Origin: Candidatus Eisenbacteria bacterium
Lineage (GTDB): Bacteria > Eisenbacteria > RBG-16-71-46 > SZUA-252
DNA: 59,559 bases
Reading direction: 5' to 3'
Assembly (NCBI GenBank): GCA_005893305.1
Contig: VBOZ01000035.1
Location: forward strand, 1 to 59,559
Position 1 is the stretch's first letter, and each line of letters opens with the position of its first letter. Under the pieces are notes generated by a model. It did not search any database. It was not told the DNA's origin and was given only the letters and a program-made list of their open reading frames with translations. Position numbers and translations under genes: made by a program. Below are positions 35,789 to 39,369 of the stretch, piece by piece.

Positions 35789-35880
35789 CCATTCGCGGAT
35801 CGATGTGATACCCCTAGATGCCGGTCGGGTTAGGGTTGCCGGTCCGGGCTACGTCGAGCTCTCGGATGGAGCTGGCATCG

Positions 35881-36336
35881 ATGAGATGGATCTTCTCCAC
35901 CACGGGCACATTCTGGCAGGTCCCGCTCCGGCTTTGCCTCGCGTACGTTTTCTGGATGCACGGTGCGCAGAAGGTCCTCGGGATGTACCACGGTCCGGGT
36001 CTCCATGGATTCGTCGGGTACCTCGCTGGGTCCGGCGTGCCCGCCTCCCTTGCCTACCTCGCGGCCTTTTCGGAGTTCCTCGGGGCATTTGGGATGCTGT
36101 TCGGCTTCCTCACGCGGATCGCGGCGCTCGGCCTCATGGCCAACATGGCCTACGCAACCGTTGCCGTCCACGCGAAGTGGGGCTTCTTCATGAATTGGGG
36201 CGGCGACCCGACGCGGGGGCACGGATACGAATACCCAATGACCCTGTTCTGCATGGCGCTGGCGCTTTTCATCGGCGGCGGCGGCAACCTTTCCATCGAT
36301 CGGATGATCGCACCCAAAGAGAAGCGCCCAGGTTGA
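35881..36336 (+). CDS. DoxX-family membrane protein
   Basis: 151 residues from MRWIFSTTGTFWQVPL. Four membrane helices; the segment LRLCLAYVFWMHGAQKVLG is the DoxX signature (R...G..F...G..K), followed by SLAYLAAFSEFLGAFGMLFGF and the RIAALGLMANMAYA helix. The ATG at 35881 has GGAG 9 bases before it; 35866 or 35818 are alternatives. DoxX proteins are membrane partners of redox and thiosulfate/sulfide or oxidative-stress systems. It lies 63 bases before the selenoprotein gene, which may be meaningful. Confidence 0.82.
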   Translation: MRWIFSTTGTFWQVPLRLCLAYVFWMHGAQKVLGMYHGPGLHGFVGYLAGSGVPASLAYLAAFSEFLGAFGMLFGFLTRIAALGLMANMAYATVAVHAKWGFFMNWGGDPTRGHGYEYPMTLFCMALALFIGGGGNLSIDRMIAPKEKRPG

Positions 36337-36399
36337 CAGGTCGCGGGGACGGGCGGAGAATCGATTCGTCCCCACCACCCATTCCCCACGAGGTGCCCC

Positions 36400-36621
36400 A
36401 TGAAAGTCGAGATCCGCTATTGCGAGATGTGAGACTACAAGCCGAGGGCTGCCAGTTTGGCGGCCGAGCTGAAGCAGAACTTCGGAGCTGAGTCGACGCT
36501 CGTTCCCGGAGGCGGAGGAGTCTTCGACGTCTCCGTCGACGGCAAGATCATCTTCTCCAAGAAGTCGGTGGGACGGTTCCCCGAGCCCGGGGAGATCGTC
36601 GGGATGCTTCAGAAGAAATAG
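36400..36621 (+). CDS. SelW-like selenoprotein (Rdx family) with in-frame UGA for selenocysteine
   Basis: ATG at 36400 with GAGGTG before it. The frame reads MKVEIRYCEM-U-DYKPRAASL and ends at TAG 36619, 73 residues, with UGA at 36430-36432 as residue 11. Three features support recoding. C8-x-x-U11 is the Rdx redox motif; the strand before it (VEIRYC) and the following DYKPRA match SelW (VVYCGAU.YKP); and the downstream part, about 62 codons, keeps the family pattern (LVPGGGGVFDVSVDGKIIFSKK..GRFP). If the UGA were a stop, only 10 residues would remain. Rdx proteins are thioredoxin-like thiol/selenol redox enzymes. The gene sits 9 bases before an M16 peptidase. No SelA/SelB/SelC/SelD genes are in the window. 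Confidence 0.9.
36447..36465 (+). promoter_or_regulatory. SECIS-like stem-loop downstream of the Sec UGA
   Basis: GGCTGCCA (36447-36454) pairs with TGGCGGCC (36458-36465) in eight base pairs, one of them G-U, around the loop GTT. The stem starts 14 bases after the UGA and the loop lies about 22 bases after it, within the range reported for bacterial SECIS elements, and the loop begins with G as these elements usually do. Confidence 0.6.
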
Positions 36622-36630
36622 GGGGGTACC

Positions 36631-39369
36631 ATGAGGTCGCTGATCCGTCTGCTCACGCCCTTAGCGCTTGCGGGCGCGATCGGCGCACTCCTGCTCGCCT
36701 CCCCCGCCGTCGCCGGCCCCCGTCCGCTCGCGCCGAGCGCCGGCCCCGCCAGCGCCACCGCCGCGGCGATCTCCACTCCGGCCGCGCCGGTCCACGAGGA
36801 AATCCTGCCCAATGGGCTCCAGGTCCTCCTGGTCGAGGATCACTCGAAGCCGCTGGTCGGAGTCTGCATCTTCGTGAAGGGGGGAAGTCGCACGGAGCCT
36901 CCCAGCCTCTCCGGCCTCAGCCACTACTACGAGCATCTGATTTTCCGGGGCGGCTCCACGAAGCAGGCGGAGCTGGAATTCCGCCGGGAGATGCAGCGGA
37001 TCGGGGAGGAGAGCGGCGGCTACACGACGAACGACTACACCTGCTACGGGTTCACGTCGCCGATCCAGAACCTCGATGAAGCCCTCTGGCGGTCGGTCGA
37101 CGCGTGGATGGGTCTCAAGTTGACCCAGCCCAAGGTCGCGAAAGAGCGGCAGGTCGTGATGGAGGAATACAACCAGGGCGAGGACCGCCCCGACTACAAG
37201 GTCTACTACCAGATCGAGCGGCTCATGTTCCGCGACCATCCGTACAAGCGGGACACGATCGGGCTTAAAGAGGTCATCGAGCACGCTTCGCTCCAGACGT
37301 TCCGCACCTTCTACGAGGAGCGATACGTCCCGAACCAGATGATCCTCGCCGCGGTGGGCGATTTCAAAACCGCCGAGATGAGCGAGAAGCTGCGCCGCGC
37401 CTTCGCGCCATACAAGCGGGGCCAGGATGACTTCGAGCTGGGACTGACCGAAGGGCCGCAGCGCGAGTTCCGCATGGGTGTCGAATCGATGAAGACGCCG
37501 AATACCTGGACCCACCTCGGCTTCCACGTTCCGCCCTACTCCGATCCGGACGCGCCCGCGCTGACCGTTCTCGCCGCCGTCCTCGGGCAGGGAACCTCGT
37601 CGCGGCTCTATCGCGCGCTCAAGGACAAGGTGAACCTGGTCTCGAGCGTCAGCGCGGACTTCGAGGTGCGCCGCGATCCTGGGATGTTCCTGGTCACCGC
37701 CGAGATGCCACCCGAGTCGGAATCGCGCGTGTTCGGGATCGTGCGGGACGAGCTGCACCGCATCGCGACCGAGCCGGTCGGGGCGGCGGAGCTTTCGCGG
37801 GTGAAGTCATCGCTCCTCCACGACTACGCGTTCGACGCCCAGACCGTCTTCGACCGCGCGGAGCGGCTCTGCCTCTTCGGCGTGATGTCGGATGTCTCGC
37901 TCGAAGCGCTCTGGCCGAAGCTTTTGGATAGCGTCACGGCGGAGGATCTCCAGCGGGTCGCCGCACGCTACCTTGCCGCCGATCTCGCTTCCTACTCGGT
38001 CGTGAGGCCGGAAGGCACGACCGGCCCGAAGCCGGAGGAGATCGAGGCGATGCTCCCGCCGTGGCGGACCGGATGGCCGGCCGTGGCCGCGTCCCAAGGT
38101 CCGAGCGTAGGGCCCGTCCGCCGCGAGGTGCTCTCGAACGGCCTCACGCTCATTCTCAAGGAGGATCACGCGACGCCGGTCGTCGCCGTGTCGACCGTCG
38201 CGCGCGGCGGCCAGTGGATCGAGCCGGAGGGACTCGGTGGCGTCTCCAACATGGCGGCCACGCTCTTGAGCCGCGGCGCGGGCTCGATGTCGGCGCAGGA
38301 CATCTCCAGTCGGGCCGACGCCCTCGGCATGCGCCTCACGACCAGCGGCGCGGCCGACTACGCGGTGATCGCGTGGCAGGCGCCCGCCTCCAATTTCGAG
38401 AAGGCGTGGGAGATCTATCGGGACGTCACGATCCACCCGACCTTCCCCGCTTCCGAGGTCGTAAAGGTCCGCGAGGACTTGACCCGTCAGGTGAAGAGCC
38501 TCGGCGACCGGCCGTTCGAGCTCACGAACCTCGAGTTCGCGAAGGTGCTCTACAAGCATTCACCTTACCGGCGCCTCGTGATCGGGGAGGAAGCTTCGCT
38601 CGCGAAAATCCAGACGCCGGACCTCCGGAAGGCGTATGAAACCATGTTCTGCGGCTCCAACATGGTCGTGGCGATCGTCGGCGATTTCGACGCGGACCGA
38701 GCGCTGGAGCTGGCCCGCGGCTCCTTCTCGACGCTGCGGCGCGGCGCCGCGGTCTCGGTGGGCGACGTGCGGGACGAGCCGGCCCAAGAGAAGCGGCCGA
38801 GCTTGATCGACAAGGAGCAGGAGCAGGTGACCTACAACACAGGCTGGCTCGCGTGCTCCGTGCGCGACCCCGACTACGTGCCCCTCCGCCTCGCGACGGC
38901 GCTGATCGGCGACAAGGTGTTCTTCAAGTACGTCTACGAGAAGGGCGTCGCCTACCGCTCCTGGTTCTACATGGCCGATCGGATGGGGCAATCCTCCGCC
39001 CAGAACGAAATGGGCGTCACGCCCGCTAATTTCGCGATGGCTTCGACGGGGGTGCTTCGGGACATCGACGAGACGTTCCGGGCGGGGCTCCCCGAGGCAG
39101 AGCTGAAGCGCTCCGCGGACAAGCTGCTCTCCCGCTGGTATCTCGGGGCGCAGCGATCGGATCAGGTCGCCGCGCGGCTCTGCTACTTCGAGAGCGCGGG
39201 CCTCGGATATCAATACGCGGACCGCTACCCGGATCTGGTGCGGAAGACGACCTCGCGCGAGGTGCTGGACGTCGCGAGGAAGTATTTCAAGCCCGGCTCG
39301 TGGACGCGCGTCGCGGTCGGGAAGGAGCCGGCAAAGGCGGCCGGGTCCTCCTCGGCGCCCTCGCGCTAG
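36631..39369 (+). CDS. M16-family zinc peptidase, two-domain (pitrilysin-like), secreted
   Basis: 912 residues with signal peptide MRSLIRLLTPLALAGAIGALLLASPAVAG. The first half has the inverted zinc motif H98-Y-Y-E-H102 (LSGLSHYYEHLIFRGG) and the downstream ligand region TTNDYTCYGF. The second half begins EVLSNGLTLILKEDHATPVVAV and lacks HxxEH (GLGGVSNMAATLLSRGAG), so it is the usual inactive partner. The full double-domain arrangement suggests a single-chain clam-shell protease of the periplasm that degrades peptides. It directly follows the selenoprotein gene. Confidence 0.92.
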   Translation: MRSLIRLLTPLALAGAIGALLLASPAVAGPRPLAPSAGPASATAAAISTPAAPVHEEILPNGLQVLLVEDHSKPLVGVCIFVKGGSRTEPPSLSGLSHYYEHLIFRGGSTKQAELEFRREMQRIGEESGGYTTNDYTCYGFTSPIQNLDEALWRSVDAWMGLKLTQPKVAKERQVVMEEYNQGEDRPDYKVYYQIERLMFRDHPYKRDTIGLKEVIEHASLQTFRTFYEERYVPNQMILAAVGDFKTAEMSEKLRRAFAPYKRGQDDFELGLTEGPQREFRMGVESMKTPNTWTHLGFHVPPYSDPDAPALTVLAAVLGQGTSSRLYRALKDKVNLVSSVSADFEVRRDPGMFLVTAEMPPESESRVFGIVRDELHRIATEPVGAAELSRVKSSLLHDYAFDAQTVFDRAERLCLFGVMSDVSLEALWPKLLDSVTAEDLQRVAARYLAADLASYSVVRPEGTTGPKPEEIEAMLPPWRTGWPAVAASQGPSVGPVRREVLSNGLTLILKEDHATPVVAVSTVARGGQWIEPEGLGGVSNMAATLLSRGAGSMSAQDISSRADALGMRLTTSGAADYAVIAWQAPASNFEKAWEIYRDVTIHPTFPASEVVKVREDLTRQVKSLGDRPFELTNLEFAKVLYKHSPYRRLVIGEEASLAKIQTPDLRKAYETMFCGSNMVVAIVGDFDADRALELARGSFSTLRRGAAVSVGDVRDEPAQEKRPSLIDKEQEQVTYNTGWLACSVRDPDYVPLRLATALIGDKVFFKYVYEKGVAYRSWFYMADRMGQSSAQNEMGVTPANFAMASTGVLRDIDETFRAGLPEAELKRSADKLLSRWYLGAQRSDQVAARLCYFESAGLGYQYADRYPDLVRKTTSREVLDVARKYFKPGSWTRVAVGKEPAKAAGSSSAPSR

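Follow-up and report, generated by a model that had tools for sequence, protein, structure and literature searches.

The window, that is, the whole 59,559-nucleotide stretch analysed here, carries on its forward (+) strand a short SelW/Rdx selenoprotein reading frame at positions 36400-36621, located between a gene for a DoxX-family membrane protein (35818-36336, +; PF07681, E=7e-19) and one for an M16 (insulinase/pitrilysin) peptidase (36631-39369, +; PF05193 and PF00675), the latter starting 9 nt past the selW stop. Read directly from the sequence, the frame begins with ATG at 36400, reaches an in-frame UGA at 36430-36432 (+) after this ATG and nine further codons, continues for 62 more sense codons and closes with a TAG ending at 36621, 222 bases in all. 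With the UGA at residue 11 read as selenocysteine (Sec, U), the translation has 73 residues, MKVEIRYCEMUDYKPRAASLAAELKQNFGAESTLVPGGGGVFDVSVDGKIIFSKKSVGRFPEPGEIVGMLQKK, and contains a CxxU redox motif, Cys8-Glu-Met-Sec11 (36421-36432, +), seen both in the translation and in the alignment of homologues. Upstream of the ATG there is a Shine-Dalgarno-like purine run, ACGAGGT (36388-36394, +), at the position where most selW orthologues have GGAGG, and a consensus scan picks out a possible sigma-70-type promoter, TTGACA-17-GAGAAT (36333-36361, +), about 39 nt 5' of the start codon, with 10 of 12 consensus matches (0.2 expected in shuffles). Callers working with table 11 see only fragments here, and the preliminary description was right that they miss the gene at the UGA.

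The assignment to the SelW-like Rdx proteins, proposed originally from the reading frame, is borne out by all three curated models. Pfam Rdx (PF10262) covers residues 2-68 at 75.2 bits (cut-off 22.6, E=4.6e-21), the NCBIfam model NF041051, 'SelT/SelW/SelH family (seleno)protein', matches at 101.8 bits (cut-off 88) and TIGR02174, the profile that had been suggested for the check, at 62.5 bits (cut-off 34.2). The CxxC or CxxU motif expected near the N-terminus of SelW-like/Rdx proteins is represented by C8-E-M-U11, at the very place claimed for it. Among solved relatives, 2FA8 (Atu0228), 3DEX (SAV_2001) and mammalian SelW (2NPB) match the window protein with E=3e-12, 6.4e-11 and 0.006, respectively, and belong to the same family by sequence. 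The first two are Cys forms (CTQC) with CxxC where the window SelW has CxxU, and their Cys is aligned with Sec11, so the Cys-containing homologues called for at residue 11 do exist. In the mammalian SelW gene the SECIS is located in the 3' UTR, unlike in window selW. From these relatives, the window SelW probably adopts a thioredoxin-like fold.

What do homologues carry at residue 11? We scanned GTDB for SelW homologues, taking one genome per species; the query for the homologue scans had Cys at residue 11, which put Cys forms at no disadvantage. Each of the 58 homologous loci that GTDB yielded has UGA at the aligned codon within the frame Y-C-x-x-U; their labels include Acidobacteria, Gemmatimonadales, Myxococcales, Binataceae, Poribacteria, Planctomycetia, Anaerolineae and proteobacterial MAGs, among others. 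Within the window's own phylum selW is found in 31 of 47 genomes, each of the 31 with one TGA, and Cys at position 11 was seen in none of the 58 GTDB loci or these 31 carriers. UGA occupies the codon in 87 of 87 aligned homologues, across many phyla. The in-frame UGA thus lines up with the position of Sec or Cys in related proteins, as is required of a bacterial selenoprotein. Zhang et al. (2006, PMC1794560) found Cys homologues of SelW-like proteins to be scarce or absent among organisms that use Sec, and the lack of Cys forms near the window SelW agrees with this. A search among relatives found selA over the cut-off in 28 of 32 selW carriers; one of the other four has selA in two pieces and three are genomes 65-80% complete.

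The genome to which the window belongs (39 contigs, 2.75 Mb, 95.8% complete) encodes the machinery that is asked of a bacterial selenoprotein, namely SelA, SelB, SelD and tRNA-Sec. Scores are 567.6 bits for selA (cut-off 267.9), 356.8 for selB (cut-off 242.25), 382.2 for selD (cut-off 125) and 68.6 for tRNA-Sec (selC; cut-off 47), the last with anticodon TCA, and so the absence of sel genes, which had been named as grounds for rejection, can be dismissed. The tRNA-Sec gene and selD share a strand and lie about 120 bases apart (G000:C8:164175-165314), while selA (C17) and selB (C3) are found on contigs other than that of the selD/tRNA-Sec pair (C8).

Purifying selection persists past the UGA. 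Compared with six orthologues from the same taxonomic family over 61 codons, the region shows dN of 0.14-0.23 and dS of 0.66-1.53, and most differences are at third positions; the loss of coding signal past the UGA, earlier named as grounds for rejection, is not seen. The ten codons 5' of the UGA give dN/dS values too noisy for use.

Just 3' of the UGA the sequence folds into a putative bSECIS apical hairpin (36447-36465, +), with an 8-bp stem, GGCUGCCA/UGGCGGCC, and a GUU loop that starts 22 nt past the UGA. The MFE of the first 40 nt past the UGA is -17.0 kcal/mol, and for the wider fold of 55 nt z is -3.5 relative to dinucleotide-shuffled sequences. The published bSECIS model asks for a loop of 3-9 nt with a stem of 4-16 bp, a G among the first two bases of the loop, a spacing of 16-37 and MFE <= -7.5 (PMC13188914), and the window hairpin agrees with it on all four points. 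These constraints alone are weak, as a lenient version of them is passed by 194 of 600 random window segments (32%) and is thus non-discriminating, and 12 of 87 homologues fail the constraints by minimum-energy fold. We have therefore examined the hairpin by position-specific covariation, and the weight rests on its position and covariation. An Rfam scan of 36000-37000 gave chance matches only, under gathering scores.

Across 77 distinct sequences and eight pairs, standard pairs occupy 89% of hairpin cells, compared to 21-47% when the register is slid by 1-3 nt. The third-position pair joining Ala18 and Leu20 is C-G in 69 of 77 sequences and G-C in the other eight, with zero exceptions. For each of three third-position pairs the observed pairing was reached in 0 of 5000 codon shuffles among the same amino-acid pairs, though kinship among the 77 sequences, which inflates covariation counts, is kept in by these shuffles rather than removed; the G-C form of the Ala18-Leu20 pair, however, is spread over loci with the labels Myxococcales/Polyangiaceae, Deltaproteobacteria and Planctomycetia. 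Codon 19 is AGT in 65 sequences, GGT in 10 and AGG in 2, so that every Ser there is AGT, a rare codon here: it encodes only 2 of 69 serines in one large neighbouring gene and 1 of 52 in the other. The loop itself is GTC, GTT or GGT in 77 of 77. Bases dispensable for the protein are thus conserved, which indicates nucleotide-level selection for recoding; a SECIS predicts such constraint, and a pseudogene or a plain alternative code does not. We also note that a near-invariant AGU Ser codon with a G-U-pyrimidine loop exactly 22 nt past the UGA recurs in many phyla among the 77 sequences. A SelW-class SECIS so sharply defined could become a covariance model to find unannotated selW genes.

Could the UGA have arisen in some other way, or be decoded in another way? 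A Cys codon, TGC or TGT, needs one base change to become TGA, and the gene could then be dead or simply misread. However, all homologues, drawn from many phyla and assemblies, have the identical TGA, purifying selection continues beyond it and a covarying hairpin follows it. Conservation of the TGA in independent genomes already refutes a pseudogene or a sequencing error, and we give this reading hardly any credence. About as improbable is a different decoding of the UGA, whether through ordinary suppression or with Trp or Gly inserted as under codes 4 or 25. Recoded genetic codes do occur in some uncultured bacteria, but here the genome has a complete Sec machinery, table 11 reads the neighbouring genes correctly, several SelW homologues use TGA as their terminal stop, and the solved non-Sec relatives have Cys at the position of residue 11. 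The fragments returned by table 11 callers would also fit two separate genes, a 10-codon peptide 5' of the UGA and a downstream ORF. This is the least probable of the three, since one Rdx domain spans both sides in one frame, with profiles matching end to end, and both halves stay together in all homologues; the single domain and joint conservation already contradict it.

The locus is thus almost certainly an intact SelW-like (Rdx) selenoprotein gene in which, from the sequence evidence, Sec is inserted at the UGA by the bacterial machinery. SelA, SelD, SelB and the tRNA-Sec with anticodon UCA would place selenocysteine at 36430-36432, directed by the mRNA hairpin immediately 3' of the UGA, whose GUU loop would be presented to SelB. 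From what is established for the Rdx family, we take Cys8 and Sec11 as the redox centre and the product as a small oxidoreductase of the thioredoxin-like kind. In the predicted 73-residue product of thioredoxin-like fold Cys8 and Sec11 would form a selenenylsulfide redox pair, and the protein probably acts as a small thiol/selenol oxidoreductase. We infer Sec insertion from homology, the conserved UGA, the covarying hairpin and the machinery, together with the demonstration for Campylobacter jejuni SelW, where Ribo-seq and mass spectrometry/proteomics established full-length translation by UGA read-through (PMC11955535).

The position between DoxX and M16 genes had also been pointed out, and correctly so as to coordinates, but it carries little weight. 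Genes for an M1-like peptidase, SelW, M16 and a sensor kinase stay together in the taxonomic family (six relatives examined), with M16 beside selW in all six and DoxX in three. Outside the family the neighbours of selW vary by lineage and are unrelated genes. The DoxX/M16 neighbourhood is family-level synteny only, and we dropped it as a clue to function, since M16 is kept only within the family and DoxX in part of it. The DoxX neighbour at 35818-36336 also matches HvfX, an NCBIfam model connected with copper-binding RiPP maturation, at 62.8 bits, under its cut-off of 80. In Binataceae-like and related MAGs (loci L019, L027, L028, L030, L033-L035, L037-L039, L041 and L065) a protein of about 190 residues is encoded directly upstream of selW, differing from the fixed neighbourhood in the window's family; judged by eye, it resembles pyruvoyl-dependent arginine decarboxylase, which is its candidate identity.

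The same genome contains a divergent Rdx-like CxxU gene (G000:C16:48748-48990, minus strand; L107:1249-1491, minus strand). Its product, starting MVRVSIRFCAYUISRFHAARVAAKIRRELG..., shares 28% identity with the window SelW over 53 residues. Pfam Rdx gives it 18.1 bits, where 22.6 are needed, and NF041051 gives it 30.3, where 88 are needed; being under the curated cut-offs, it is missed by these models. In every orthologue found, from three other genera of the class (L119, L120 and L121; 51%, 51% and 38% identity), the corresponding codon is UGA. A SECIS-like hairpin, CGCCGCC-CGUGU-GGCGGCG, is located about 21 nt past the UGA, and the orthologues have a similarly spaced hairpin of 6-7 bp, whose five-base loop opens with CG; these loops (CGUGU, CGGGY) differ from that of selW. 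On balance we favour the view that the genome encodes two CxxU Rdx-type selenoproteins, and that the divergent one may be a separate, uncatalogued Rdx-like subfamily. It is a less ordinary lead than the window SelW.

The window SelW is an ordinary, well-supported addition to an already described, widespread bacterial family. Bacterial SelW-like selenoproteins have been known since a 2005 survey of the Sargasso Sea (PMC1088965) and were the most abundant marine selenoprotein family in GOS, with 427 Sec and 56 Cys forms (PMC2398784). The window protein resembles them (PF10262, TIGR02174, NF041051) in family, length, N-terminal CxxU, UGA codon and downstream hairpin, with no substantive difference beyond being a new sequence. 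Both are often omitted by gene callers, and selW genes have been overlooked in the annotation of Epsilonproteobacteria (PMC4607533). Campylobacter jejuni SelW (CJnc60) is similar in having about 80 residues and a UGA read by tRNA-Sec and in having been missed in annotation, and the window SelW is over the cut-off of the 'SelTWH_Campy' model NF041051; the two differ in host lineage and gene neighbours. Knowledge of the Rdx/SelW family itself is unchanged. What appeared to be a truncated fragment is a complete gene dropped by automated annotation, and window selW could be made into a reporter of how SelB recognises the SECIS. The gene adds a lineage with SelW exclusively in the Sec form, as far as sampled, and offers a clean case of a coding sequence and a recoding signal selected in the same bases, as seen in the AGU codon and the third-position covariation.
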